This document shows, one piece after another, positions 93-33,447 of a stretch of 33,447 bases of DNA (positions are counted from its first letter, which is position 1; every line of letters begins with the position of its first letter). Source of the stretch: a virus. A model generated the notes under the pieces. It saw only the letters and a program-made list of their open reading frames with translations. It made no database searches and had not been told where the DNA came from. The stretch covers positions 1-33,447 of IMG/VR virus record IMGVR_UViG_3300001533_001131. One strand, written 5' to 3'. Position numbers and translations under genes: made by a program.

Positions 93-413
93 ATGGAAAT
101 ACAAAAAAATCAAATCAAAGAAAAATTGGTAAAAATTCAAGAAATTGAAGTACCAAAAGGAAAAGCAATTCAGAACAAGAAAGACCCTACAATATTTGCC
201 CTTAACACACTATATCTGCCCGAAGAGGCTAATGTAAGTGATTGGCAAATTGTTGACAAGGAATCATTACCAAAACAAAAAGAACCGCCTGTTGACACTA
301 TTGAAAAAACGGTAGCAGTAAAACCTAAAAAGAAAATTACAAAAGTTAAGGAAGTTAGAAAAGTAAAAGAAACATTATGGACTAGAATTAAAAAGTCTTT
401 TAAAAGAAATTAA
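93..413 (+). CDS. Small basic hypothetical protein
   Basis: This 106-residue protein is not recognised. It is lysine-rich, and the last third is a strongly basic stretch (KPKKKITKVKEVRKVKETLW and on to RIKKSFKRN), with no signal peptide or membrane segment. An in-frame ATG exists upstream at 63, but it lies inside the preceding reading frame. I prefer the ATG at 93 because it is preceded by an A-rich leader (ataaaaataaataaa) like those before other genes here. It sits between the end of a possible fibre gene and the lysis cassette. The basic tail could bind nucleic acid or a membrane surface, but nothing in the sequence decides this. Confidence 0.6.
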   Translation: MEIQKNQIKEKLVKIQEIEVPKGKAIQNKKDPTIFALNTLYLPEEANVSDWQIVDKESLPKQKEPPVDTIEKTVAVKPKKKITKVKEVRKVKETLWTRIKKSFKRN

Positions 414-414
414 A

Positions 415-684
415 ATGATAGAAATGATAATGAGATTATTAAATAATTTTGATGCTGTAAAAGCTTTTATGGTATCAATATCTTCAGCAATTTTTGGAAC
501 TGTATTAGGTTTTGAGAATAACAGTAGCTTATTATTAAATCAAGTTCCCGATCCAATTTGGTTTTGTTTAGTCAAGCCATATTTTCAAATAGCTGCATGG
601 AGTATTGCTATTTTAGCAGGAGCTTATTCCTTTATAAAAGCAATTGAAAAAGATAAGGAAAAAAACAAAACTAAAAAAAAATAA
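415..684 (+). CDS. Holin-like small membrane protein
   Basis: This 89-residue protein has two hydrophobic segments, about residues 17-33 (AFMVSISSAIFGTVLGF) and 56-77 (PYFQIAAWSIAILAGAYSFI), and a highly charged lysine-rich C-terminus (KDKEKNKTKKK). Two membrane helices with a basic tail, directly upstream of a cell-wall amidase, is typical of a class II-like holin that permeabilises the inner membrane. The stop abuts the amidase start (TAA then ATG), implying coupled expression. Alternative starts exist at 424 and 430. The holin role rests on topology and context only; no family motif is visible. Confidence 0.65.
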   Translation: MIEMIMRLLNNFDAVKAFMVSISSAIFGTVLGFENNSSLLLNQVPDPIWFCLVKPYFQIAAWSIAILAGAYSFIKAIEKDKEKNKTKKK

Positions 685-1425
685 ATGAAAAGATTAATTT
701 TTCGTATATTAATTAGCTTATCAATTGCCGGAAGTAGTGCAATTGGAGGTTATTATATTCATACATCAAAAATGGAAGAAAGCCGTGTAAGGATAGTTTT
801 GGACTCTGGACACGGTTCAATCATTAATTTAATTTATCAAACATTCGGCAAACAATCTCCTGAATGGCCATGCGGTTTGAAAATATGGGAAGGAGCTAGT
901 AATAAATTATTTGCTTATGATTTGGTAAGAGAATTGTCAATGAACGGAATAGATGCTCAACTACTTAATCCTGAATTGGAGGATATAAGCTTAAAGGAAA
1001 GAGTGGCAAGGGCGAACAGCATATACATAAGGGACAATCGCACCGTATTTATATCATTGCATCATGACGCCCAACCTATAAATGAAACGGCAGACTACAC
1101 AGATAGTGAGGGTTTGCAAGGTTGGACGAAAGGAGGAGCAAATCATATAATAGTATTTACCTCAAAAGGAAAGACAGAAAGTGATGTTCTTGCTCAATAC
1201 ATAGCTTGGGAATTGGGAAAGGTTATGCCGATGCCCGTCTATGTAAGGGAATGCAATTATTATGTACTGAAGAATACATATTGCCCTGCTGTATTAATTG
1301 AGTTTGGGTTCATGACATCTTACGAAAGCTGTAAATACATTGCAAGTGATGAAGGCAGGAAAAACTACGTATCAGCAGTATCTAGCGGAATAAGAATGTT
1401 TAATATAAAAAAGAAAAGCAAATGA
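685..1425 (+). CDS. N-acetylmuramoyl-L-alanine amidase (Amidase_3), membrane-anchored endolysin
   Basis: This 246-residue protein begins with a hydrophobic segment (about 4-25) followed by an Amidase_3 fold. It should cleave the amide bond between MurNAc and the stem peptide of peptidoglycan, using zinc. Visible family motifs are RIVLDSGHGS with ligand His43; WEGASNK with candidate ligand Glu69; FISLHHDA with ligand His126; and VLIEFGFM with catalytic Glu206. The N-terminal segment suggests export as a signal peptide or a signal-anchor-release tether, rather than holin-dependent release of a soluble enzyme. It starts immediately after the holin-like gene and overlaps the next gene by 4 bases (ATGA). 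The catalytic family assignment is strong. Confidence 0.9.
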   Translation: MKRLIFRILISLSIAGSSAIGGYYIHTSKMEESRVRIVLDSGHGSIINLIYQTFGKQSPEWPCGLKIWEGASNKLFAYDLVRELSMNGIDAQLLNPELEDISLKERVARANSIYIRDNRTVFISLHHDAQPINETADYTDSEGLQGWTKGGANHIIVFTSKGKTESDVLAQYIAWELGKVMPMPVYVRECNYYVLKNTYCPAVLIEFGFMTSYESCKYIASDEGRKNYVSAVSSGIRMFNIKKKSK

Positions 1426-2102
1426 AAATTAATAAAAGAGAATTAATAATGATGGCAGTAATAATAGTATTGTCGTTATTGTTTGTCAAATCCTGCTCTG
1501 ATAAGAATAAGGTGAATGAGATTAATGAGGTATTAAATGATGAATTGGAATTAAGTACAAACAAATTAGGGCAACAATCAGCTACAATACAAGCATTACA
1601 AGTCCAAAATGAATTGCAATTCCTGACAATACAAACCAAAGATAGTACTATTCAATGGTTGCAAATATTAGTCAAAGATTATAGAGGAAAATTGGAGCAT
1701 GCTTTAGTATTGTCCAACAATACAGGAAGCACAGGTTCTACTGTTACCGTAATTGAGTATGATACTGTTACAGAAATAAAATATCCTATCTATTCAACAA
1801 CGTGGGAGAATAAATGGGAGCGTGGTTTTATTAGAGCCACTAGTGATTCTATTTATAGAGAAATCAAAATAAATAACGAATATGAAATCACAGTAGGCAA
1901 AGAAAAGACAGGATTTTTGAAACGAGCGTACCAAGTGAGAATCAAGAATTTGAATCCTAATACCAACACAACAGAATTAAGGAATGTCAGCATTCAGCCA
2001 AAACAACGTAGAATTGGTATTGGTTTACACGCTGGCTATGGTATTACAGGGAAAGGCTTGACTTGGTATGCTGGAGGTGGATTATATTTTAGAATATTAT
2101 AA
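1422..2102 (+). CDS. Spanin-like (Rz-type) lysis protein
   Basis: This 226-residue protein has a short basic N-terminus, a hydrophobic segment (about 7-24, ending with a cysteine in KSCSDK), and then a long predicted coiled coil (about 30-95, rich in Gln, Leu and Asn). A polar beta-rich region follows, and the C-terminal hairpin is Gly/aromatic-rich (IGIGLHAGYGITGKGLTWYA) and ends YFRIL, like an outer-membrane beta strand. An inner-membrane anchor, periplasmic coiled coil and outer-membrane-like end match a spanin that joins the two membranes at lysis. The Cys after the hydrophobic run could alternatively be a lipobox-type site. It follows the amidase with ATGA overlap, supporting a lysis role. 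Family assignment is by architecture and context. Confidence 0.6.
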   Translation: MKINKRELIMMAVIIVLSLLFVKSCSDKNKVNEINEVLNDELELSTNKLGQQSATIQALQVQNELQFLTIQTKDSTIQWLQILVKDYRGKLEHALVLSNNTGSTGSTVTVIEYDTVTEIKYPIYSTTWENKWERGFIRATSDSIYREIKINNEYEITVGKEKTGFLKRAYQVRIKNLNPNTNTTELRNVSIQPKQRRIGIGLHAGYGITGKGLTWYAGGGLYFRIL

Positions 2103-2111
2103 AGAAAATAT

Positions 2112-2738
2112 ATGAGCAACGTATTATTATTTAATGAAGAAACAGGGAATATAGATATTACACCGGAATTTAGTTATAATCCGGATGTATTATTTTTACA
2201 AGCACAGGATAAAACAAGAGATAAAAGAATATTTCAAGAACAATTAAAGTATCTTTATTTTAGATATAAAAGAAAAGGAGAATATTCTGAAAGATTACCC
2301 GAAGATCGTAACAATATAATTCAATCAAGGTATCTTAAAGAATGTAAAATTAAAGATATAGAAGAAGATGAAGCTTTTATTGCTGTTAAACAATTATACC
2401 TTAATGAGCAATTAACAACAAAGGAAAGAGTATATTTGTCAGTAATAGATGATATTCAAAAACAAATACATCATGTAAACAATATCCCTTATTCTATTAA
2501 AACAAAAGTTAAGGTTGATGTATTAGTACCTAAGTATCATGTTGAAGAAGATCAAGAAGTAGAAACTAAAACAATAGAAAAAGAAGTTAATATAAGTAAT
2601 GCTTCAGAAAAAGTAAAAGCCTTAAAAGACTTAAAAGATATGATGAATTTCCTTGATGATCTTAAAGAAAAGATTGAAAAGGAAGAAATAGAAACAAAGA
2701 AACAACGTAAAAACTTTTTTTTATTCGATAAACAATGA
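2112..2738 (+). CDS. Hypothetical protein upstream of TerL; possible small terminase subunit
   Basis: This 208-residue charged protein is probably mostly helical. The first third is rich in aromatic and basic residues (FRYKRKGEY). The C-terminal part (about 135-205) is strongly Lys/Glu-rich and looks like a coiled coil (EKVKALKDLKDMMNFLDDL). There is no recognisable catalytic motif. It overlaps the TerL start by 4 bases (ATGA), the position where many tailed phages carry the DNA-recognition small terminase subunit. That role is inferred from position and helical character; I see no clear helix-turn-helix. Confidence 0.5.
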   Translation: MSNVLLFNEETGNIDITPEFSYNPDVLFLQAQDKTRDKRIFQEQLKYLYFRYKRKGEYSERLPEDRNNIIQSRYLKECKIKDIEEDEAFIAVKQLYLNEQLTTKERVYLSVIDDIQKQIHHVNNIPYSIKTKVKVDVLVPKYHVEEDQEVETKTIEKEVNISNASEKVKALKDLKDMMNFLDDLKEKIEKEEIETKKQRKNFFLFDKQ

Positions 2739-5700
2739 AATTTGTAGATACACATAGATTTTCTCCAGTAGCACAAGGTATTGATTTGCCATGGGAAGAT
2801 GATTTATTTCATTTTGCTCCAGAGGAAATTCCTACAAATAAAAAAGAGTTTGAAGAGTTTATAAAAGATAATAACATTACTTGTGATACTGGATGGTGGG
2901 AAGAACAAAAAAACAGATGTATAAATGGATATGATATTCCTAATGCTATAGAAGAAGGTGGAGATTATTGTGTAGATAACGAAGATGCTATTTGGTATGG
3001 AGATGATGTTTTTTTACCGGAATACAAATTATGGATTAAGAATAAAACATTGCATATAACCGGTAGGTATTATTTCTATTTAAACTTCTGGCCAATCTAT
3101 GGATTACCTGAAGGGAAAACAGTAAAGACAATTATTAAACCACGATTTTTAGATATTGATTATTTTTTCTTTCAGAGAATTGTAAGAATGTTTAACGAAG
3201 AGAAAGATCAATCAGAATTAAAGGGCCGGCAGCAGGGATTTGATTTACCAGACAGCGAACCAGTTTTAACTATTAATGGGTGGAAAAGAAATGGAGATCT
3301 TCAAAAAGGAGATTTAGTTGCAACACATAAAGGAACATTTTCTCCAATAGTAGAAATATTTCCGCAAGGAGAAAAAGATATTTATGAAATAGAATTAATA
3401 GATGGAAGAAAAGTAAGATGTGGATTAAATCATAAATGGAAAGTTTATGGATCTTCATGGAAGGGAGAAAAAGAAAGAGTAATTGACACAAAATATTTAC
3501 TTGAAAATCCAATAAAACATCAATGTAATAAAGGGAAAAATGTAGGTTATATTTATAAATTGCCTGATATCGAACCAATACCTTATGAAGAAAAAGAGTT
3601 ACCGATAAATCCTTATTTGTTGGGTTTATTAATAGGCGATGGACATATGAATAGAGGAATAAAAATTTCATCAGTAGATGAAGAAATATTAAGTAATATA
3701 AAAAAGATTTTAGGTTCAGAATATCAATTAAACTTTGATAAACATAGTGATTGTAATTATACTATTGGATATAAAGGTAAACATACCGGAGAAATGAAAA
3801 AAAGATATGGATTAAGATCTATTATAAATAAGTTTAATCCATTGAAACAAGAATTAAAAATGTTGGGAATGCTTGGGAAAAATGCTATTGATAAATTCAT
3901 TCCTGATATTTATAAATATTCTTCTGTTTCTCAAAGAGAAGAACTTTTAAGAGGTTTAATGGATAGTGATGGATATATTTCTGAAAAGGGTAAAATGGAG
4001 TTTAAAACTATTTCTAAAAAATTATCAGAAGATATAAGTGAACTTTGTCGAAGTTTAGGAATAAAAATAAAATGTAATAAATTTAAAAGTAAACAGGGAT
4101 TTAATGATTATTATAGAGTATATTTAAAAACAAATAAAATTAATCCTTTTAAATTAAAGAGAAAAGCTGAAAGATTTTCTTATAAAAGAAAAATATATAA
4201 ACGAGTATCTATTGTTAATGTAAGAAAACTTAATTATAAAGAAAGTTCTAGTTGTATAATGATAGAAGATAAAGATCATCTTTATTTGACAAAAGATTTT
4301 GTTCCTACGCATAATAGTGAAAAAGGAGCAGGAGGATTGCTTGGTTACAACTTTTCTTTTGTGCCTAATTCGGTAAATATTATAGTGTCAGGAGAAGAAA
4401 CAGATGCTGAACATACATTTGAAAATGTTACAAGAGGATTAGATGCGTTAAGGAATACTCAATTCTATAAAACAAGAAGTGTTAATAAACCTTCAGATTT
4501 AATTATAAAGGCTAAGAATTTCGGTTCTGAAATCAGAGGATTGACGGCAAAGGATAAAGAACAAGTTATTTCTCGTTATTCTCCTTTTTGGGTATTTTGG
4601 GAGGAAGTAGGAAAATGGAAAAAAGGACAATGTATTAAGGCTAGAGAATTTGCATTACCTGCACAACAAGCGGAAGGTAAAAAAACAGGATTTAATACTT
4701 TTATAGGGACTGGAGGAGATATGGACCAAGGTGCTGATGATTTGAAAACTATTCATTATAATCCAGAGGCATATAACGTATTAGAATTTTCTAATAAATG
4801 GGAAAGAGATATTACCGCAAAAAACAGAAAATCAGGTCATTTCTCAACAGCATTAGCATATAAAATTATTGATAAAGATGGTAATAGTTCTTTATCTGAA
4901 GGAGATAAATATTTAATAGAACAAGAAAAGAAAAAGAAATCACAAAAAGAAAGACTTAAATTTAGAACTCAAAATCCTAAATATGCTTCAGATGCGTTTT
5001 TAATTTCAGCAGGAGGTTTTTTTGGAGAAGATAGAATTATTCTTTTAAATAAAAGATATACAGAAGTTATCTCTGGAACAGATGTTGCTCCGATAGAAGT
5101 AGGTCGATTAGAGCCATTAGATGCTTCTGACATAAGCAAAGGAGTTAAGTTTATATTAGACCCCAATGGATGGTTAAAAGTGCGTGAAAGGCCTAGATTG
5201 GATAAAGACGGTAAAACCTTCATTAATTTATACGTACAAGGAACAGATAGTTATGATATTGATGAAACAGCTACTACAAATTCAAAGGGGGCTTCCTATG
5301 TTAAGAAGAAGTATTTGCCAGGAGATGGTGTTAATAATACATACGTATGCGAATATATAGATAGGCCAGGTATTGGAAGTGGAGGAGGTAAAACTTTTTA
5401 TAAGAATTGTGCAATGATTAGCGTATGGTATAATTGTTTGAATTTAATAGAAAATAGAAACTTACGTATTTTTGATTGGTACGATAATAATAAAGTAGGT
5501 AATCATATTAGAAAGCGTCCTGAACTAGCATTTGCTTCTAAAGTAAATGGTTCGGGTTCTTCTTTACAATCAAGAGGAGTTGATCCTGCATTAAAGCCAC
5601 ATTTTTTAGCGTTATTGTCTGATAACTTATCAGATCAATTTATTGACAATCTTAATTTTGAAAATCAAATAATGGCATTATCTAAATATCGTTATGAAAC

Positions 5701-5875
5701 AGGTTCTCATAAATACAATTGTGATATAACTATTGCAACAGCTATTTGTGAAGTAGCAGCTAAAGAGGATGAGTTTACTCCTATACTAGCATCAGGAGAG
5801 TTATCAAAAAGGTCAAATATAAAAACAGCAAGGTTTGTTAACCAAGGTGGTCAGATAGTAAGAATTTATGCATAA
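2735..5875 (+). CDS. terL: Terminase large subunit (TerL), interrupted by an intein
   Basis: This 1,046-residue precursor contains an intein at residues 170-527. Removal leaves a 688-residue TerL, the DNA-packaging motor ATPase and headful nuclease. Splicing would rejoin the Walker A region as GRQQGF-SEKGAG. Walker B is visible as VFWEE (620-624). In the nuclease half, GTDSYD (Asp838) and CDITIATAIC (Asp997) are plausible RNase H-fold metal ligands. The N-terminal 169 residues form the usual crAss-type extension, with many Trp and acidic residues. It overlaps the preceding gene by 4 bases and is followed 12 bases later by the portal gene. Because the intein splits the P-loop, TerL should be inactive until splicing occurs. 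Confidence 0.92.
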   Translation: MKFVDTHRFSPVAQGIDLPWEDDLFHFAPEEIPTNKKEFEEFIKDNNITCDTGWWEEQKNRCINGYDIPNAIEEGGDYCVDNEDAIWYGDDVFLPEYKLWIKNKTLHITGRYYFYLNFWPIYGLPEGKTVKTIIKPRFLDIDYFFFQRIVRMFNEEKDQSELKGRQQGFDLPDSEPVLTINGWKRNGDLQKGDLVATHKGTFSPIVEIFPQGEKDIYEIELIDGRKVRCGLNHKWKVYGSSWKGEKERVIDTKYLLENPIKHQCNKGKNVGYIYKLPDIEPIPYEEKELPINPYLLGLLIGDGHMNRGIKISSVDEEILSNIKKILGSEYQLNFDKHSDCNYTIGYKGKHTGEMKKRYGLRSIINKFNPLKQELKMLGMLGKNAIDKFIPDIYKYSSVSQREELLRGLMDSDGYISEKGKMEFKTISKKLSEDISELCRSLGIKIKCNKFKSKQGFNDYYRVYLKTNKINPFKLKRKAERFSYKRKIYKRVSIVNVRKLNYKESSSCIMIEDKDHLYLTKDFVPTHNSEKGAGGLLGYNFSFVPNSVNIIVSGEETDAEHTFENVTRGLDALRNTQFYKTRSVNKPSDLIIKAKNFGSEIRGLTAKDKEQVISRYSPFWVFWEEVGKWKKGQCIKAREFALPAQQAEGKKTGFNTFIGTGGDMDQGADDLKTIHYNPEAYNVLEFSNKWERDITAKNRKSGHFSTALAYKIIDKDGNSSLSEGDKYLIEQEKKKKSQKERLKFRTQNPKYASDAFLISAGGFFGEDRIILLNKRYTEVISGTDVAPIEVGRLEPLDASDISKGVKFILDPNGWLKVRERPRLDKDGKTFINLYVQGTDSYDIDETATTNSKGASYVKKKYLPGDGVNNTYVCEYIDRPGIGSGGGKTFYKNCAMISVWYNCLNLIENRNLRIFDWYDNNKVGNHIRKRPELAFASKVNGSGSSLQSRGVDPALKPHFLALLSDNLSDQFIDNLNFENQIMALSKYRYETGSHKYNCDITIATAICEVAAKEDEFTPILASGELSKRSNIKTARFVNQGGQIVRIYA
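3242..4315 (+). mobile_element. Class 3-type intein with LAGLIDADG homing endonuclease, in the TerL P-loop
   Basis: The element has 358 codons. Block A is DLPDSEPVLTINGW; block B is DGRKVRCGLNHKW, with His at B:10 and Trp at B:12 (precursor residue 235). The endonuclease has two motifs, LLGLLIGDGH and LLRGLMDSDGY. Block F begins CIMIEDKDHLYL, with Cys at F:4 (residue 507). Block G is FVPTHN followed by Ser, with Thr at G:5 (525), the penultimate His and terminal Asn527. Residue 1 is Asp rather than Cys or Ser. The Trp/Cys/Thr triplet defines class 3 inteins, which start splicing from the block F Cys. B:7 is Gly instead of the usual Thr. Insertion in a conserved nucleotide-binding loop is typical of inteins. 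Confidence 0.9.
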
Positions 5876-5887
5876 AGCAAAAAAATT

Positions 5888-8554
5888 ATGAAAACAATAG
5901 AAATTGAAAGAATTATTAATGTTACTGAAAGTCAAAAAGACAAACAATGGATAAGTGATACTGCAACGTACATTTATCAAGAATCTATAAATAATGTAGA
6001 GGCAAAAAAAATGGATGTTGAATCGTGGAACTTATATAATAAGAAAATCGATCAACACAGTTATGATTATCTTCGTAAATATGGAGATTATGAATTGCCG
6101 GCATTTGTAAGGTTTATACCAATACAAAGACACTTTTTGGATATTTTAAAAGCACAACAAGAAAGAAGAAGATTGCCAATGTCAGTATATATTACTGATG
6201 AAGAATTAGTAAGGCAAAAACATACTGAATCTATAAGAGCAAAATTAAGTGCTGCAATATTACAACATCAACGAACTCATGGACAATATGATGCTATAAT
6301 GCAAGGTATTCAACAACAAATGCAAGAGTTACAACAGATGGCACAAAAAGAGCCTGAAAGTCAAGAAGAAGCAGAACAATTAATGCAGCTAAAAAAGCAA
6401 CTTCCTTTTGTTATGAATGAAATGAATGCTATGTTATTAGCATACGAAAGAGAAAAGAAAGTGAAAGAAGTTGACATACAAAAAATAGAAAAATATTATA
6501 AAAGAGAATATAAAGATCATAAGGAAATTGTTGCTCAAAAATTAAAAACAAAATTAGAAAAAGAGTTACGAATTAAAACAAAAACTACAAATGCTTTTGT
6601 AGATCAAATTGTAACAGGAAAGCATTATTATTATGTTGATTATGAAGATGGACAAAGATTACCTACTTTTAAAAACATCAATGATTTAAAAGTCTATTAT
6701 CCACAAATAGACAATGTTGAGTTTGTACATGAAGGTCCTTGGGTTATGATATTGGATTATTATTCTTATACTGATGTTGTTAAATTATATGGTAAAGATA
6801 TAAAAGAAGAACACGGAGAAGAAACTCTTAAAAACATAGGAGAATACGGTTCTTACACTTCAAACTATAATCAGATGTTATCTGGAAGTAACGGAGAAGG
6901 TTATTTCGTTGATGGATCTCTTATGAATGGATATGCAGGCACATCTTGGACAGGTAATGGAATAAGCGTTGCAAAAGTATTTTATAAATCAAATAGAGAT
7001 GTTTATGTTAAAAAATCTCCTAATCCTTTTCAACAAAGAGATTATTTTACACATATCATTTCTCCTCATAAATCATTAATAAGAAAAGAAGATTATTACT
7101 TTAAAAATGGGTATTATATAAACAAAAGAAATAAGCAAGAAACATATTTTAAAGATGAAGTAATAACTTATTCTGATACTAAAGGAGAAAAAAAGGAATG
7201 TTATACCGTACAAGATGTTTATGAAGCTGTTATAATTGCTGGAGAATATGTTATAAGACAAAGAAAAAAGAAACATATAAGACGAGATCAAAATAATCTT
7301 TCATTGGCACATCTTCCTGTTTTTGGAAGATCTTTTAATAATTTAACCGAAGAACCTTATAGTTTAATACAATACACCAAAGATATTCAAGAATTATATA
7401 ATATTGTAAACTATCATCGTGAATTATTATTAGCGATATCCGGTGGAAAGGGAACAGTTGTTGACTATTCTCAAAAGCCTCCACAAATGGATCAAACAGA
7501 ATGGGAATATAATATGAAAATTGGAAATCTTTATATTAACACTGTAGATAGCAATGGTCGTCCTATTAATCCTTCTTATAATCAATGGAAAAATTATGAT
7601 AATACAGTATCTCCTGTTGTTGTTCAATTAACTCAAATTTTACAAGAATTAGAAGAAACAATGGGTAGAATAATAGGAGTTAATAGACAGATGTTAGGAC
7701 AAGTTGTAGCAAGCGACCAAGTAGGAACAAGTCGTCAAGCATTAGACCAATCACAATTAATAGTAGAGCCTTTATTCTATGAATGTGATTTAATTTTATC
7801 TTATGCTTTAACAGACTTACTTAATCATGCTATTAATAATTGTTTTAAACCAGGAGAAATAGTAAGTATTTTTTATGATGACTTGGATAATGAAGTAATA
7901 GAAATTCCAGAAGGATTAAATTCGTTTTCTTATAGAGCAATGGTTATTGATAGTCCGTATCAACTTAATCAATTAAATGAATTAAGAACTGCAATGATGC
8001 AATTAACGATGAATGGAGCAATGCCTTTGCGAGGTATTATTGATGGTTACAAGATTGAAACTCTTAAAGAGTTAGAAGAAAAATTTGTTGAATATGATGA
8101 GAAAAGAGAAAAGGCACAACAAATGGAATCTGAAGCACAAAGAGAGCATGAGCAAAATATAAACCAATTAAGAGAACAAATGAAAATGCAAATAGAAGAA
8201 GGTAAAAGGCAGGTAGATCAGATGAAGTTACAGGTAGAGAAAGAAAAAAATGATATAAATGCTCAAATTAAAATGTTAGAGTTAGATTTGCTTTCTAAAA
8301 AACAACAAGACGAGGTAAATCTTAAAATGTTAGAACTTACAAATGAGCAAAGAACAGAAACGGCATTAATGAATCAAAATAAAGAACTAACTTTAAACGA
8401 ACAAAAATTAAAGGAATTTCAGATAAAATTAGATTATATGTTTAAAATGATAAGTTTAGGAGTTAATGCTGAAAGAGAGGTACAGACAAAGAAATTAGAC
8501 ATGGAAACAAAATTATATGGTGCTAAAAATAAAGAACATGTAAGTGATAGATAA
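5888..8554 (+). CDS. Portal protein
   Basis: This 888-residue protein would form the dodecameric ring at the capsid vertex through which DNA is packaged and ejected. The size and position directly after TerL match crAss-like portals. The N-terminal region includes a Gln/Glu-rich helical segment (about 130-230). The centre is mixed alpha/beta, and the region around residues 590-625 (GVNRQMLGQVVASDQ) resembles portal stem/wing sequence. Residues about 735-880 form a long charged coiled coil, rich in Gln, Glu and Lys, expected for the barrel or crown inside the capsid. Assignment rests on size, architecture and synteny. Confidence 0.85.
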   Translation: MKTIEIERIINVTESQKDKQWISDTATYIYQESINNVEAKKMDVESWNLYNKKIDQHSYDYLRKYGDYELPAFVRFIPIQRHFLDILKAQQERRRLPMSVYITDEELVRQKHTESIRAKLSAAILQHQRTHGQYDAIMQGIQQQMQELQQMAQKEPESQEEAEQLMQLKKQLPFVMNEMNAMLLAYEREKKVKEVDIQKIEKYYKREYKDHKEIVAQKLKTKLEKELRIKTKTTNAFVDQIVTGKHYYYVDYEDGQRLPTFKNINDLKVYYPQIDNVEFVHEGPWVMILDYYSYTDVVKLYGKDIKEEHGEETLKNIGEYGSYTSNYNQMLSGSNGEGYFVDGSLMNGYAGTSWTGNGISVAKVFYKSNRDVYVKKSPNPFQQRDYFTHIISPHKSLIRKEDYYFKNGYYINKRNKQETYFKDEVITYSDTKGEKKECYTVQDVYEAVIIAGEYVIRQRKKKHIRRDQNNLSLAHLPVFGRSFNNLTEEPYSLIQYTKDIQELYNIVNYHRELLLAISGGKGTVVDYSQKPPQMDQTEWEYNMKIGNLYINTVDSNGRPINPSYNQWKNYDNTVSPVVVQLTQILQELEETMGRIIGVNRQMLGQVVASDQVGTSRQALDQSQLIVEPLFYECDLILSYALTDLLNHAINNCFKPGEIVSIFYDDLDNEVIEIPEGLNSFSYRAMVIDSPYQLNQLNELRTAMMQLTMNGAMPLRGIIDGYKIETLKELEEKFVEYDEKREKAQQMESEAQREHEQNINQLREQMKMQIEEGKRQVDQMKLQVEKEKNDINAQIKMLELDLLSKKQQDEVNLKMLELTNEQRTETALMNQNKELTLNEQKLKEFQIKLDYMFKMISLGVNAEREVQTKKLDMETKLYGAKNKEHVSDR

Positions 8555-26236: not shown

Positions 26237-29200
26237 ATGGGAAAACAAATAAAAAACGAAGGATTACAAGGAGCAGTACAACAAAGAACAGAAAACGAAG
26301 GTCGTCCTGTTTCCGGCAATGGTTATTTTGAATTAATTTCACAAGGTGTAGATCCTATAAAGGTAGCAGAAAATGGTACTAAATTAAGACTTGAATCTTA
26401 TGATCAAGTTAAAAGCGTTTATGGTCAAAATTTTACAGATCCAAATACAGGGGAGTTTAATGAGCAAGATTTTGATAAAATGTATAAATCTGCTAATAGT
26501 GAAGTGGATTATTATAATAGTATCAATTATGATGATTTAAAACAAACTACTACATATAAACTTGGTAAACTTTGGGGGTTTAAAGACCCAACAAGAACTG
26601 TATTACAAAATTCAGGAATAGCCCAAGAAACCAATTTTTTAAATCCTACAACACGTTTTCCTCAATATCATAGATTAGACACTGATGAAAAAATAGCTAC
26701 TAAAAAGGGCTATTATAGAGATTTTAATGAAGAAACAGGAGAGTGGAAATTAAAGAAAATAACATGGCAAGATAAGGTTAATCCAGTTACTCCATTAGTA
26801 TTAAAATATAGGGAAGATAAGAATGGGAATATTGAACCTATGTGGGAAAAATTACTGATAGGTAAAAATCGCACAGAGGCAGAAACTATATATTCATGGT
26901 TTGGATCAAATGAAAGATATGGAGGTGATGGGCTCTCTCATTTTTTTGGTGGTTTATTCAATGGTGCTATTGCAGGTACTTTAAATTCATTTGCATGGAT
27001 GGCAGAAAGAACAATGGGGCAAGCTCCTATTGGTGCTCCATTAAATGTAGATAAGTTGCAAAATGCTTATGAATTTAGTCCTGAAGAATATCAGCAATTA
27101 TTAAGTGGAGAAGAAATTGCCAAACAGTATTTTCATAATAATTCAGGAGAAACAAGATATATGCCTTTTTCTTTTGATGATGCGAAATTTATGCGATTAA
27201 ATGAAAAGACTGGTAATTGGGAATATAAAGAAAGTACTGGTACTATGCAAAGTGCAATGTTTAGTTCTTTAGTAACGCTAACAGAACAAATGAAATATAA
27301 GCCTGCTGCTGCAAAGCAAGAAGGAGTTCTTGAAGACAGTGGATCTTTTGGCGATAAATATTTTTGGGGAGATTTAGGAGATGGTATTGGATTTATGTTA
27401 CCTATGATAATAGGAGCAGGAGCAGTAACAAAACTTATACCTGCATCTACCAAGATGGTTCAAAAAGCACCTAGTATTATATCTAGGTTAACAAAAGGAA
27501 CAAAGGTTGTATCTAAAGCTTCCAGTAAAGGAACGCAAGTAGTTAAGAATATTCCTAAAATGGTTAATAAAAGTATTAAGGTTAAGCACAACTTAGCAAG
27601 AGGTACAATGACTTATATGGGTACACAGGCTGAATTAGCCGGAGTATGGAAAGAAGGGAAAGAATCAGGGTTAACAGATAGAGATTTAAGTAGTGTAATG
27701 ATTACTGCTTCTCCTTCTATTATGGCAGCAGAATGGTTATTTGCTACTCCAAGATATTTAAAAGCATTTTTACCTTCCAAGTTTGGAGTTGATAGGGCAA
27801 TAAAAAACAATGTAAAGCAAATTGCAAAATTATCAGAGAAGATGCTTTATAAGGGTTCAAAACATGAAGCTATAAAACGAATTACATTAAATAACCTTAA
27901 ACATCAATCTGTTGCATTTATGAAAAATGCTCCTGATCTTGTAAGACAAGCACAAAATTATAAAGTTGGAGCATTTGTATATAATACATTACGAGCAGGT
28001 AGTGGAGAGATGATACAAGAAAATCTGGAAGAGCATTATATTGATATTACAAAAGGTATTTATGATAAGAGATGGGCTGAAGAATATGCTGTTCCTGGTA
28101 TGGGTAAGTTTGGTGTTGATATGACAAATACGTGGATTTCTGTTCCTTCTTTATGGGGTAGTAGAGAATGGTGGGAGAGAACAAAAGAAGTAGCAAAAAT
28201 AAGCTTTATTGTTGGTGGATTATTTGGAGCAAATGCCAAGACTAAATCAATGGATTATGGAGTAGATGCTATTGTAGATCATTTAATTAAAAATGGAGCA
28301 GAAGGGATAGATGCCCAAGCAGCACAATTAAAAAAGATGCATAAAGATTTATGGCAAAAAGGGCAACAAGGAAGGAATGATAAGGATTTCAATAATATGC
28401 TAATTACTAATGAAGAAGGTGGTACTTCTGTAGTAGCAGCAGAAAATATAGAGGGATTAGAAGCCGGTACTCCTTTAAGCAATCAAAATGATATTAATTA
28501 TCAATTACAAATACAACAGATAGATATTATAGCTGAAATGATAAAAGAATCGGGAATTGCAGATGTTAATTCTTTAGAGAATTTTGTTGGTAAAGAACAA
28601 ATGGCAAAAGATTATTGGACACATTTTGTAGAGTTAAGAAACGTACAGGACCAAGTAAAAGAAATAGAAGAACAATTAAAAGATACTAAATTAAACGAAC
28701 AAGAAAAAGCTGCATTAGAAGTACAAAAAAATGATTTGTTGAATGGTTCTTCTAAAGAGTTACAAGAAATGGAAGAAAAGTATTCTTTAAAGAATGGGGA
28801 GATAACTCCTGAAACAACGGCAAAAGTAAAAGAAGAAATTGGAGAAAATATTCATTTATTGTATAATAGATTACTGGGAATTAGGGCTAACTATTTAAAA
28901 CTTAAATTAGGAGATAAGCATGAAAGTTCTATTGTAGGATTACAAGAAAGAGTAAATGGGTATTTAGAGAAAAGACCTGGAGAAAAATTTTCACGTAAAT
29001 ATATTGATGCATTAAGACTTGATATTTTTAAAAAGAAATTCAATAATAAATATGAGGCGTCTATCCCAATGGATGAAATGACTTATGGGAGGATGAATGC
29101 TGTAATACAAATCGCTCAACCGTTAAGAGAAGAGAATAGACGTTCTGTTTTAAAAGATAGAGCAGAAAGACGAGAAAAATCACAAGAGCCATTAGGAAGC

Positions 29201-32200
29201 GTTAGAGAGAGTTTAAAGGAACTTTTTGGAGAAGACATAAATAAAGGAATAGGTTCTATCAATAAAACGATAACATTAGAAGGACTTAAACAGATAGAGA
29301 GAGCATTAACCTCTATTAATAAAGAAAAGTCTTTAATAGAGACTGGTATTAATAAAGAAGATGCAGGATATGTATTAGAGTTAAATAAGCTTGCGAATAA
29401 ATTACAAGAAAGATTAATTAATGAGGGGAATATGGAGTTAGCCATGTCTGAAGAAATGGGAAGAATAACAAGTTTAACAGGAGAAACAAATAAGATAAAA
29501 GAAATAGAATCCGGTTATACAGTACAAGATGATGCTAATTTCTTAATGAAAGTATTAGGATTTGATGTATTAAAAGCTTTTCAAGAAGAAATAGATCTTA
29601 ATAATCCAAGTATTCCTAGACACATACAGAGTGCGGAAAATGTAATTATTCAATATCAACAAATGTCAATGTTTAATGATATTATGAATGTTATGAAAAA
29701 AGGGGAATTAAGTAAAGATGAAGAGAATTTCCTTGATGAGATTTCATATAATCAATTAATGTCTGATATGTTGCAAGATAAAGTAGAAGGAGAAACTTTA
29801 AGTGAAGTTGGTAGAGTAATAAATGAAGAAACTATAAAAGCTATTAATGAAGAATTAAAAAACTTACAAGAATCTTTTGATACTTTTAAAGAAAATTATA
29901 ATGCAACTGCATCTCAAAGAGCAGAAAAGGAAACAAAAAAACGACATGTTAATACTATTAACAGAGGAGATATGTTGAGGGAGTTACAAAGTTGGTTTTC
30001 TAATATTTCTGATAATGGAGAAGTTTCTGAAATGAGCAAAGTAAATGCATCAAAAGAAACTATAGTTCAAAAACTAAAAAGTATTACTTTCCCTGATGGT
30101 AAAAATTTATTTGACTTATTATTTGATCCTGGAACAGGACTTATAAATAATAAAATATTTCCTTTATTAGAGGAATTAAAAGCTGAATATAAAAAGGTAG
30201 AGGATTTGTCAGAAGAAGGACAAAGTTCTTTACTTTATAATGATGAAAATATATTAGAACTGGAAAGAAAAACTAAAGAAGCTATTATAGAAGTAGAATC
30301 TTTATTATATAAAGCGTATAGTGAGTTCGGTATTGAAGAAATGTCTTTTACAAACGAACAAGGAACTGTTGTTAAAGAAAATATAGATCTAAAAAAGGCT
30401 TTTTTTACAGAAGCTATGGAAGCTTTTTTAGTAAATTGTGATGCTAAGCTTGGAAATCTTGAAGGTAGTTTATATAACTCTGGTAATAGCAATACTTATT
30501 TCGCTGAAGAGAATGAATTGATTAATTCACAAGAATCATTAATTTATGATGATAACCCTACAAGATCAAGTTTTTCTTATATGCAAATAGAAACTCATTT
30601 GAATACAATATTAAATCTTGACATGAATGAGTTTAATAAATTCAAAAAAAAAGAGGCTAAGAATATTTCACAAGGTAATGGAAACGTTCAACATATTTGG
30701 ACTATAGAGCAAGAAAATTTAATAGCAGCAGGTATAGCTTTTATTAAATCAAAAGGAAAATTTATAGGACAAAAAACTCCTATTTCTGATTTTGGTCCTA
30801 GTGCTGTTACAGATATAGAATATGTTTATTTATTTAGTGATGAAAATTTTGATAGTAATCCTCAATATTTAGCTAACAATGTAGCAAAACTGTTAATAAG
30901 CGGATATAGTGGTAGTGGGAAAACTCAAATGGTAGTTCCTATGCTTGTTAAGTTTTTTGAAGGAAATACAAATGTTGAGTTTGCAACTACTGCTCCAGGA
31001 CAAATTAGCGATACATTAAACAATATAGTAAAAGCTAATACTGAACAAGCAGATGTAGCAGGATACGATCATAAAAGTTTACTTTCAGATAAAACATTAG
31101 CTGAAATAAAGTTCAAAGCAAAAGAAGATAATCAAGTTGTTCTTATCCTTGATGAAGCTGCAAAACTGTCAAGAGAGCAGATAGATAAATTAGGACAATT
31201 AAGAAATGAAAATGTAGTTATTATAGGATTAGGAGATTCAACACAATCTTCTTATCTTTCAACAAATAAAAAAGGTATATTGGAATATGATGTAATGGGA
31301 GTAGAATTTTCAAGAGGAGCATATAATGTTCCTTCTATTACGACAAAACATCGAAGTAATAATATAGAACAATTCCAATTACTCGAAACACTTTCTAATG
31401 CCATAAGAAAAATTAAAACAGGAACAGAAATATCTAATGTTATACTTAAAGGAACAATGGATAATCTTTCTTATTTTAAAGATGCAGAAGGTAGAAAGAG
31501 TGGTATAGAATTTAAAAAAACAGCTGAAGATGTAATAACTGAATTTAAGAATAGTAAGAATAATGGGAGTTCTGCTTTAGTTTTTGCATTAAAAGCAGAA
31601 GCTGATGCATTTAAAAAAGAAAATCCTGAATTAGCAGATAGAGTAAAATATATTTTAACAGATGCAAAAGGGTTAGAAGTAAATAAAGAAGACTCCAATT
31701 CTATTCAAGGACAAGAATATGATAATGTGTATATTGCTTTTGAATATAAAGATAATGGAGATTTTAATAAAATAGGAAAAGATACTGTTGATAAAGGTTC
31801 AATGAATAAATTTCAAATAAAAAACCTTGTTACAGCTATAGGACGATTAAAAACAAATTCAAAAGGAGATGGATATTTAGCTTTACCACAGATAAAAGGT
31901 ATAGGGTCTTCTAATCAAGTGGCTAAAAAAAGTGATATTCCTGTAGTATTAGTTGAAGATTTAGATATTGATACTCTTGATAAAAATACTGCTTTAAATG
32001 AATATATACAATCTATTAATCCAGAACAAAAATATTTAGATCCAAATGCAAAGGAAGTAAATAAAAAAAGCAATCCTAAACCTTCAGATAATAGTGATGA
32101 TTCAGGCTTTGTAAAATATGATGTAGTAAATTATAAAGGAGAAATTTATTATGTAGTTGGAAAGACTAATGATAACAAATTAAAACTATTAAAACTTGAT

Positions 32201-33447
32201 GATTTAAGTTTAAATAATCCAATAGAAGTTTTATCTGATGATGTTACTATTGTAGATAGCAACTTATATACAGATATTTTCGTGAATGATCCTGTTAAAA
32301 ATATTTCTCCTGTTTTTGTAAATAATCATTTTAGATTAGTAAATGGGAAAATTAAATTTGATAAAAGAAAACAAAGAACAAGAGAAATAGAAAAAGCTAA
32401 TTTAGTATTAAATCTTATTGCTAAATTAGATGAAGGGAAAAATGTTAAATTACAATTAAAGAAAGCTGTTCGTAATAAGAAAATTGTTTTATATGCTGAA
32501 TATGAAGGAAAAGTTTTATTTATATTACATACAGGTACTCATTTCAGAAATACATTTAATCCAAAACAGATAGAATTATTTCATAAAGCTAAGAGTAAAA
32601 AATCTGGAGAAGTAGTAGGAAGTGCAACAATAAGCCGAGAAACTTTAGCAAAAACTTTTATCAATAATGTCAAAGATACAGTAAATGATAATCCTAAATC
32701 ATTAGATGATTATTTGATGATGATAAATGAATTTAATAAAAGTGGTTCAGGTATTACTTTTCAAATAAAGGAAAATGATAAGACAGAACCTTTGTTTGAA
32801 AGAACAGGAGATAAGAAAAAGGGAAATTTTAATCAAAGGATATATATTGAAGTTTATAAAGATGGAAAAAAATTAGAAGGAAGAGATACCTTTGTATATT
32901 TTGATACTAATATGAATGAGGGTTTTGTTGAAAAGATAAAAAATGAAACTTTTGGAGAATGGGGTATTTTAGATCAAGTAACAAGTGATAAAAAAGGATA
33001 TATTTCTAACTTTTATCTTGTAACAAATACCAAAACAGATATATTAGGAGAAACATTAAGACAAAACAGAAGTCGATTTGTCAATATTGATAAAGATGGC
33101 AATATGACAATTAAAGATGAATTTAAAAAATACTTTAAAATAAAAAAAATAAAAAGAGGAGTTTATACAAAAGAACAAATAGATTTTAGAATTCCTGATG
33201 GAACAACTATAGAGGGGTTAAAAAAATATGTAGAGGGTGTTGTGGAGCTATTTGATACAATGCAAAAGGAATTATTTATTCCTATAAGTATGCAAGAAGC
33301 AACAAAAGATTATGAGAAATTAGATACAAAAAATGTAACAGTAAAATACACTCCAACAATAAATGATTTTTCAGTAGAGTTATCAGTAGATGAGAGTATA
33401 GATCCACCTTCAAATGATAAAAATATTGAGGCTGAAAGAGCTGATAT
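26237..33447 (+). CDS. Giant cargo-like protein with an SF1 helicase domain (partial at right edge)
   Basis: The frame is open from ATG 26237 to the window end, at least 2,403 codons. Residues 1-~800 are structural-like, with hydrophobic Gly-rich segments near 382-402 (GIGFMLPMIIGAGAVTKLI) and 650-662 (ISFIVGGLFGANA). About 800-1500 is charged coiled-coil-like sequence. A superfamily-1 helicase follows: motif I GYSGSGKTQ (1556-1564), II LILDEAA (Asp1639), III GDSTQ (from 1666), a TKHRS motif IV region, V SIQGQEYDNVYI (1822-1833) and VI VTAIGRL with Arg1870. The C-terminal region (about 1950 on) is unassigned. Start follows an A-rich leader (CAAAAAAA). Position after other cargo genes suggests a packaged, ejected protein; helicase chemistry is inferred from the motifs. 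Confidence 0.85.
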   Translation, partial: MGKQIKNEGLQGAVQQRTENEGRPVSGNGYFELISQGVDPIKVAENGTKLRLESYDQVKSVYGQNFTDPNTGEFNEQDFDKMYKSANSEVDYYNSINYDDLKQTTTYKLGKLWGFKDPTRTVLQNSGIAQETNFLNPTTRFPQYHRLDTDEKIATKKGYYRDFNEETGEWKLKKITWQDKVNPVTPLVLKYREDKNGNIEPMWEKLLIGKNRTEAETIYSWFGSNERYGGDGLSHFFGGLFNGAIAGTLNSFAWMAERTMGQAPIGAPLNVDKLQNAYEFSPEEYQQLLSGEEIAKQYFHNNSGETRYMPFSFDDAKFMRLNEKTGNWEYKESTGTMQSAMFSSLVTLTEQMKYKPAAAKQEGVLEDSGSFGDKYFWGDLGDGIGFMLPMIIGAGAVTKLIPASTKMVQKAPSIISRLTKGTKVVSKASSKGTQVVKNIPKMVNKSIKVKHNLARGTMTYMGTQAELAGVWKEGKESGLTDRDLSSVMITASPSIMAAEWLFATPRYLKAFLPSKFGVDRAIKNNVKQIAKLSEKMLYKGSKHEAIKRITLNNLKHQSVAFMKNAPDLVRQAQNYKVGAFVYNTLRAGSGEMIQENLEEHYIDITKGIYDKRWAEEYAVPGMGKFGVDMTNTWISVPSLWGSREWWERTKEVAKISFIVGGLFGANAKTKSMDYGVDAIVDHLIKNGAEGIDAQAAQLKKMHKDLWQKGQQGRNDKDFNNMLITNEEGGTSVVAAENIEGLEAGTPLSNQNDINYQLQIQQIDIIAEMIKESGIADVNSLENFVGKEQMAKDYWTHFVELRNVQDQVKEIEEQLKDTKLNEQEKAALEVQKNDLLNGSSKELQEMEEKYSLKNGEITPETTAKVKEEIGENIHLLYNRLLGIRANYLKLKLGDKHESSIVGLQERVNGYLEKRPGEKFSRKYIDALRLDIFKKKFNNKYEASIPMDEMTYGRMNAVIQIAQPLREENRRSVLKDRAERREKSQEPLGSVRESLKELFGEDINKGIGSINKTITLEGLKQIERALTSINKEKSLIETGINKEDAGYVLELNKLANKLQERLINEGNMELAMSEEMGRITSLTGETNKIKEIESGYTVQDDANFLMKVLGFDVLKAFQEEIDLNNPSIPRHIQSAENVIIQYQQMSMFNDIMNVMKKGELSKDEENFLDEISYNQLMSDMLQDKVEGETLSEVGRVINEETIKAINEELKNLQESFDTFKENYNATASQRAEKETKKRHVNTINRGDMLRELQSWFSNISDNGEVSEMSKVNASKETIVQKLKSITFPDGKNLFDLLFDPGTGLINNKIFPLLEELKAEYKKVEDLSEEGQSSLLYNDENILELERKTKEAIIEVESLLYKAYSEFGIEEMSFTNEQGTVVKENIDLKKAFFTEAMEAFLVNCDAKLGNLEGSLYNSGNSNTYFAEENELINSQESLIYDDNPTRSSFSYMQIETHLNTILNLDMNEFNKFKKKEAKNISQGNGNVQHIWTIEQENLIAAGIAFIKSKGKFIGQKTPISDFGPSAVTDIEYVYLFSDENFDSNPQYLANNVAKLLISGYSGSGKTQMVVPMLVKFFEGNTNVEFATTAPGQISDTLNNIVKANTEQADVAGYDHKSLLSDKTLAEIKFKAKEDNQVVLILDEAAKLSREQIDKLGQLRNENVVIIGLGDSTQSSYLSTNKKGILEYDVMGVEFSRGAYNVPSITTKHRSNNIEQFQLLETLSNAIRKIKTGTEISNVILKGTMDNLSYFKDAEGRKSGIEFKKTAEDVITEFKNSKNNGSSALVFALKAEADAFKKENPELADRVKYILTDAKGLEVNKEDSNSIQGQEYDNVYIAFEYKDNGDFNKIGKDTVDKGSMNKFQIKNLVTAIGRLKTNSKGDGYLALPQIKGIGSSNQVAKKSDIPVVLVEDLDIDTLDKNTALNEYIQSINPEQKYLDPNAKEVNKKSNPKPSDNSDDSGFVKYDVVNYKGEIYYVVGKTNDNKLKLLKLDDLSLNNPIEVLSDDVTIVDSNLYTDIFVNDPVKNISPVFVNNHFRLVNGKIKFDKRKQRTREIEKANLVLNLIAKLDEGKNVKLQLKKAVRNKKIVLYAEYEGKVLFILHTGTHFRNTFNPKQIELFHKAKSKKSGEVVGSATISRETLAKTFINNVKDTVNDNPKSLDDYLMMINEFNKSGSGITFQIKENDKTEPLFERTGDKKKGNFNQRIYIEVYKDGKKLEGRDTFVYFDTNMNEGFVEKIKNETFGEWGILDQVTSDKKGYISNFYLVTNTKTDILGETLRQNRSRFVNIDKDGNMTIKDEFKKYFKIKKIKRGVYTKEQIDFRIPDGTTIEGLKKYVEGVVELFDTMQKELFIPISMQEATKDYEKLDTKNVTVKYTPTINDFSVELSVDESIDPPSNDKNIEAERAD
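30902..31852 (+). other. SF1 (UvrD/RecD-like) helicase core within the giant ORF
   Basis: All the motifs expected for an SF1 nucleic-acid helicase occur in order over about 315 residues: Walker A GYSGSGKT, Walker B ILDEAAK, motif III GLGDSTQS, motif IV-like TKHRSNN, motif V IQGQEYDNV and motif VI-like VTAIGRLK. Key residues (the Walker A Lys and Thr, the Asp-Glu of motif II, the Gln of motif III and the Arg of motif VI) are present, so ATPase activity looks intact. The reading frame is continuous on both sides, so it is a domain and not a separate gene. Confidence 0.85.

Follow-up and report, generated by a model that had tools for sequence, protein, structure and literature searches.

Covariation of residue 1 with block B:7 in class 3 inteins, and a predicted class 3 intein with Asp1 in a crAss-like phage terminase

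Background

In class 3 inteins, residue 1 and the residue at block B:7 form a coupled pair: a bulky residue 1 goes with glycine at B:7, and a small one with some other residue there. This rule holds in 284 of the 288 class 3 inteins that we gathered. Among them is an intein that interrupts the gene for the terminase large subunit (TerL) in the window, which is the whole stretch of viral DNA analyzed here (33,447 nucleotides; IMG/VR record IMGVR_UViG_3300001533_001131). With a probability of roughly 93%, we read it as a class 3 LAGLIDADG intein in the P-loop of a crAss-like TerL, with predicted splicing initiated by Cys338 and with Asp1 tolerated through Gly61.

The rule looks new; the intein itself joins the already known class 3 type and the known phage TerL inteins. 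In a survey that covered 1701 class 3 inteins, B:7 was described as a position without a conserved residue (PMC7891396), and dependence on residue 1 explains this variation. We found no published covariation of residue 1 with B:7 in open papers on inteins, a coverage that leaves aside the 2011 paper expanding the class 3 definition, where Asp1 or B:7 may have been mentioned earlier. For engineering, the pair is useful as a two-residue design rule that limits the choice of the first amino acid in a class 3 intein. Also, the question of how these inteins position their N-terminal scissile bond when residue 1 is not a nucleophile becomes directly testable.

A class 3 intein interrupts the TerL gene

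Translation of the TerL open frame places the insert at codons 170-527 (nt 3242-4315; 358 amino acids), with the layout ...KGRQQGF / DLPDSEPVLTINGWKRNGDLQKGD ... CGLNHKW ... SSSCIMIEDKDHLYLTKDFVPTHN / SEKGAG..., where slashes, here and below, mark the insertion site. An earlier sequence-only reading of this DNA had proposed a 358-residue class 3 intein between GRQQGF and SEKGAG, and its coordinates, length, and named residues are all correct. The features of the gene are listed in Table 1.

Table 1. Features of the interrupted TerL gene, in window positions
Feature	Positions	Strand	Basis
TerL (terminase large subunit) gene with in-frame intein interruption	2735..5875	+	1046 codons open; protein matches
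N-extein, TerL residues 1-169, ending ...KGRQQGF	2735..3241	+	empty-site relatives L020, L021
Class 3 intein, 358 aa	3242..4315	+	alignments, empty sites, predicted fold
Asp1, intein residue 1, non-nucleophile	3242..3244	+	empty sites
Gly61, block B:7, coupled to residue 1	3422..3424	+	residue 1/B:7 covariation
His64, block B:10, putatively catalytic	3431..3433	+	invariant in alignments
Trp66, block B:12, class 3 triplet	3437..3439	+	alignments
LAGLIDADG homing endonuclease domain, approximate limits	3578..4195	+	Hom_end PF05204 1.2e-13, PI-SceI match
LAGLIDADG motif 1, LLGLLIGDG (Asp133)	3617..3643	+	translation, alignment
LAGLIDADG motif 2, LLRGLMDSDG (Asp243)	3944..3973	+	translation, alignment
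Cys338 (Cys507 of the CDS), block F:4, putative first nucleophile	4253..4255	+	invariant in alignments
Thr356-His357-Asn358, block G:5-7, C-terminal end of the intein	4307..4315	+	alignments
C-extein from Ser+1 (SEKGAG...), including the stop codon	4316..5875	+	empty-site relatives

By all the sequence and structure criteria testable here, the insert is a class 3 intein. An alignment of 17 inteins (A1) shows no variation at His64, Cys338, His357, or Asn358, and conservation of 90% or more at Trp66 and Thr356. All signature positions are in register in a second alignment (A4) of 67 inteins that were picked for the class 3 signature. Both alignments agree with the numbering originally proposed for the triplet (Trp B:12, Cys F:4, and Thr G:5), and direct sequence comparison matches Cys338 to the catalytic block F Cys of the MchDnaB-1 intein (6rix). 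His B:10, His G:6, Asn G:7, and Ser+1 are all present as His64, His357, Asn358, and Ser+1, and residue 1 is Asp, which leaves that position without a Cys, Ser, or Thr nucleophile.

The predicted fold points to the same class. In an AlphaFold2 model of the intein (pLDDT 94.2, pTM 0.92), the splicing domain aligns with 6bs8, the class 3 intein of Msm DnaB, at an rmsd of 1.6 A over 123 residues (Z 19.4); it also matches 6rix, and the whole two-domain model matches PI-SceI with a Z of 28. In Pfam, the homing endonuclease family PF05204 is detected at 1.2e-13, and the intein splicing domain is seen below the cut-off only. Both LAGLIDADG motifs of the predicted endonuclease are intact and have their catalytic acids. 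Matches to at least 80% of the intein query were found in 533 phage records, the best of them 30-36% identical; together with the high pLDDT, these matches exclude chance resemblance. The closest phage inteins, at this 30-36% identity, are located mostly at GK/T or GK/S of P-loops, and nearly all of them have the class 3 triplet. On a 288-tip tree composed of class 3-type inteins only, the window intein nests among the other 287.

Given that splicing of the window intein is predicted and that its residue 1 is uncommon, it might be a degenerate class 3 intein, that is, a pseudogene that has lost splicing and leaves TerL broken. Such a pseudogene is known from the literature: Arth_1007, which is class 3-like and inactive (PMC3196547). 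However, Arth_1007 has neither Cys F:4 nor His B:10, whereas the window intein keeps all catalytic residues, its frame runs open from one extein to the other and through the two LAGLIDADG motifs, and the Baka TerL1-b intein, a class 3 relative that also has Asp1, splices. Moreover, TerL is a packaging gene that is normally essential. We therefore consider degeneration unlikely.

Proposed splicing and homing pathway

The established class 3 pathway starts at the N-terminal junction with the attack by Cys F:4; the N-extein is then transferred to the +1 residue, Asn cyclizes, and the exteins become joined by an amide bond (PMC5222942). Class 3 structures reveal Cys, His B:10, and Thr G:5 as a protease-like triad (PMC7664689). 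By analogy, Cys338 of the window intein, aided by His64 and Thr356, would attack the Phe169-Asp170 bond to form a branched thioester at block F, after which the N-extein would be moved onto Ser+1. Cyclization of Asn358 would then free the intein and intact TerL (QQGF-SEKG), whose exteins would finally be joined by an amide bond. Asp1 would have no nucleophilic role, and would be tolerated because block B:7 is Gly61. Through its endonuclease, the intein would in turn be copied to TerL alleles in which the site is empty. We infer that the window intein splices, based on its membership in class 3, and that it is capable of homing.

A residue 1 that is not a nucleophile is also characteristic of class 2 inteins, and a comparable route would have Ser+1 attack the N-terminal junction directly, without Cys338. 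This route is highly improbable, in that Cys338 is invariant in our alignments, mutation of Cys F:4 stops all three WCT inteins in which it was tested (PMC5222942), and class 2 is known only as orthologues of KlbA, which have Asp at F:4 (PMC4031507).

Insertion site and host phage

When virus contigs were scanned with the C-extein, two uninterrupted TerL relatives were recovered, with the junctions ...SRQLGY/SEKGGGG (L020; extein identity 78%) and ...KGRQLGF/SEKGAGG (L021; 46%). Neither record yielded the window intein when searched for it. Because these empty sites have no Asp at the junction, the Asp is residue 1 of the intein and is not part of TerL. Although Leu is residue 1 of some class 3 inteins, a start one residue later, with Leu2 first and the Asp assigned to the extein, is scarcely credible given the empty relatives (RQLGF-SEKG and RQLGY-SEKG, with no intervening Asp), the gap-free alignment of block A from Asp1 to Gly13, and the sister intein L282, in which Glu is the first residue after KGF.

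In alignments, the insertion site coincides with the P-loop position of crAss-like TerLs, such as RGAGK/S in phage DAC15 and RGYGK/S in another relative (L104). The sequence-only reading had located the intein in Walker A. Relatives have a homologous P-loop at this site, but the usual Lys is missing from the window TerL, which has Phe at this position (QQGF/S), making it a deviant Walker A. The intein has a G+C content of 25%, below the 32% of the exteins, which is consistent with its being a mobile insert.

For both the TerL extein and the portal protein, the best named matches are mainly Crassvirales, in addition to Flavobacterium and Cellulophaga phages, with 21-29% amino-acid identity, and the Crassvirales-related matches are phages of Bacteroidetes hosts. 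These similarities support the proposed crAss-like TerL at the family level. The further description of the virus as a gut phage is unsupported, as the window, a viral fragment of 33 kb, is unplaced. At the nucleotide level, the window has no match to any phage record. The major capsid protein has a weak match to the PHROG 'major head protein' (6e-10), and a tblastn search of the phage collection with this protein gave no match.

Elsewhere in the window, a single open frame (2403 codons or more) takes up positions 26237-33445; it runs off the window and contains a GYSGSGKT P-loop, and its predicted product is a giant crAss-like phage protein. The possibility that 26-33 kb is a gene-free or alternative-code stretch was rejected; the 2403-codon frame is open under the standard code. 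No tRNA or Rfam matches were found within the window.

Acidic first residues among class 3 inteins

Class 3 inteins were gathered from IMG/VR, GTDB, and phage records by using search patterns that are independent of residue 1, and were made non-redundant. The scans of these collections were seeded with smaller alignments, as the 17-sequence alignment was too diverse to serve as a seed. In the first set, 215 inteins have Cys at F:4, and 212 were retained after the class 3 signature was required. A hold-out set consists of 76 inteins, and has no close member in common with the first set. Bethlehem and Catera, two phages with class 3 inteins that have been characterized biochemically, were sought in the collections by accession and were not found.

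Residue 1 is Ala in approximately 164, Glu in nine, and Asp in three inteins of the first set; the corresponding numbers among the 76 hold-out inteins are 35, 19, and four. Over both sets, Asp1 is found in 7/288 and either acid in 35/288 (~12%), proportions that depend on the seeds and do not represent a census. The initial impression of an unusual acidic residue 1 was right insofar as Asp1 is uncommon. However, acidic residues are not rare as a group, and the Asp1 intein of Baka TerL1-b provides a precedent that splices (PMC5050341). Moreover, judging from the available sequences, an acidic residue 1 is the usual state within the crAss-like TerL clade of the window intein, because its sister L282 and further crAss-like TerL P-loop inteins (L283, L286, L288, L293, L300, and L301) all have Glu1. 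Changes between acidic and nonacidic states at residue 1 number at least 10 on a 212-tip tree and 22 on the 288-tip tree, whereas Cys F:4 is fixed.

About two dozen of the 288 WCT inteins naturally have Cys, Ser, or Thr at residue 1 in addition to Cys F:4. Examples are L070, L087, L154, L162, L164, and L130 for Cys1, and L133, L228, L262, and L205 for Ser1. With both nucleophiles in place, class 1 and class 3 starts would both be possible, and these inteins may be intermediates or reversions.

Coupling of residue 1 and block B:7

Position B:7 is located three positions before His B:10. In the first set, Gly occupies B:7 in 12/12 inteins with an acidic residue 1 and in 0/163 with Ala1 (Fisher p 4e-13, uncorrected for kinship), and in both sets an acidic residue 1 is always paired with Gly at B:7. 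Under the general rule, inteins with Gly at B:7, and no others, have a bulky residue 1 (D, E, Q, M, L, V, F, H, N, T, and larger); both the rule and the list of bulky letters were fixed before the hold-out scans. It holds for 208 of the 212 inteins in the first set, where the exceptions are L130, L194, L196, and L248, and the N-terminal ends of L194 and L196 are poorly matched. All 76 hold-out inteins follow it, of which 33 are bulky with Gly and 43 are small without Gly.

Regarding the size of residue 1, B:7 carries 0.345 nats of information in the first set, compared with 0.111 for the next column (residue 1 aside); in the hold-out set, its information is 0.684, which is the maximum. Gly at B:7 was favored by the block B pattern in one of the two hold-out scans, and Cys or Ser by that in one discovery scan. 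Because the patterns skip residue 1, the association does not arise from them, although the proportions are biased. Shared ancestry was addressed by using the 288-tip tree, which was built without the columns for residue 1 and B:7. Among independent pairs on this tree, 15/17 exhibit a joint switch and none the opposite (sign test p ~6e-5), and approximately 31 switches occur over all branches.

Published structures suggest a physical basis for the coupling. In the Msm DnaB intein, Asp62 (B:7) is near Ala1 (PMC6195587), and in AceL NrdHF, Ser65 (B:7) contacts the carbonyl of residue 1 and the scissile amide (PMC7891396). Most simply, the side chains of residue 1 and B:7 would share one space beside the scissile bond. 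The presence of Leu, Met, Val, and Phe at residue 1 in inteins with Gly at B:7 favors such packing. Among bulky residues paired with Gly in the first set, 12/23 are carboxylates, and this large share leaves room for a functional swap. The scissile bond might then be placed by a swappable unit that consists either of a B:7 side chain (Cys, Ser, Thr, Asp, or Asn) with a small residue 1, or of Gly with the side chain of residue 1, mostly a carboxylate. Asp1 would accordingly stand in for the B:7 side chain and contribute actively to the machinery, rather than being an oddity that is tolerated. We offer this proposal tentatively and consider the odds to be somewhat against it; because Leu and Met at residue 1 are unable to hydrogen bond, a special role for the carboxylate is at most something that may exist.

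Comparison with known inteins

The closest characterized counterpart is the TerL1-b intein of the mycobacteriophages Baka and Thibault (L017), which is identical in the two phages. The Baka intein splices and cuts DNA (PMC5050341). Like the window intein, it has the class 3 triplet, starts with Asp, has Gly at B:7, ends in THN before Ser+1, contains a LAGLIDADG endonuclease, and is inserted in the TerL P-loop. The two are approximately 30% identical, and the Baka insertion is one residue further downstream (GKG/S), with an empty allele in phage WXIN (RQNGKG/SCLEA). Its host gene belongs to an actinobacteriophage, and on the tree its acidic branch is separate from that of the window intein.

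The nearest relative overall is L282, from an unpublished public IMG/VR contig. It occupies the same site in a crAss-like TerL (KARQKGF/.../SEKLSGG) and is the sister of the window intein with support 99, at ~54% identity, with exteins that are 42% identical. It shares Gly at B:7 and the class 3 triplet, but has Glu1 in place of Asp1.

TerL inteins have already been published for crAss-like phages of the Delta group, where the example described has inteins of the Hint-Hop type, unlike that of the window (PMC7886860). The TerL inteins of the Crassvirales phages DAC15 (L005) and cr111_1 (L004) resemble the window intein in having a class 3-type triplet and in being located at the P-loop or two residues off. 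They differ in having Ala1 with Ser or Thr at B:7, and are 33-34% identical to it.

Three further inteins were observed in the course of this work. A class 3 intein in IMGVR 3300035698_017015 (L001, positions 4968-6002; 39% identity) has Ala1 and Cys at B:7, and the frame of its host TerL is open only if TGA encodes Trp. The cr53_1 TerL (L019, locus 381-3560) has in-frame TAG codons and carries a different intein that starts with Cys and lies outside the P-loop. In Lactobacillus phage LfeInf (L010, positions 1495-2622), a gene annotated as an endonuclease contains a class 3-type intein that the submitters annotated; its triplet reads F-C-S (Phe at B:12, Ser at G:5) rather than W-C-T.

Finally, the Msm and Mch DnaB-1 mini-inteins (6bs8 and 6rix) share with the window intein the splicing-domain fold, the class 3 triplet, and, presumably, the mechanism. 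They reside in DnaB, have no endonuclease, and represent the other state of the coupled pair, with Ala1 and Asp at B:7.
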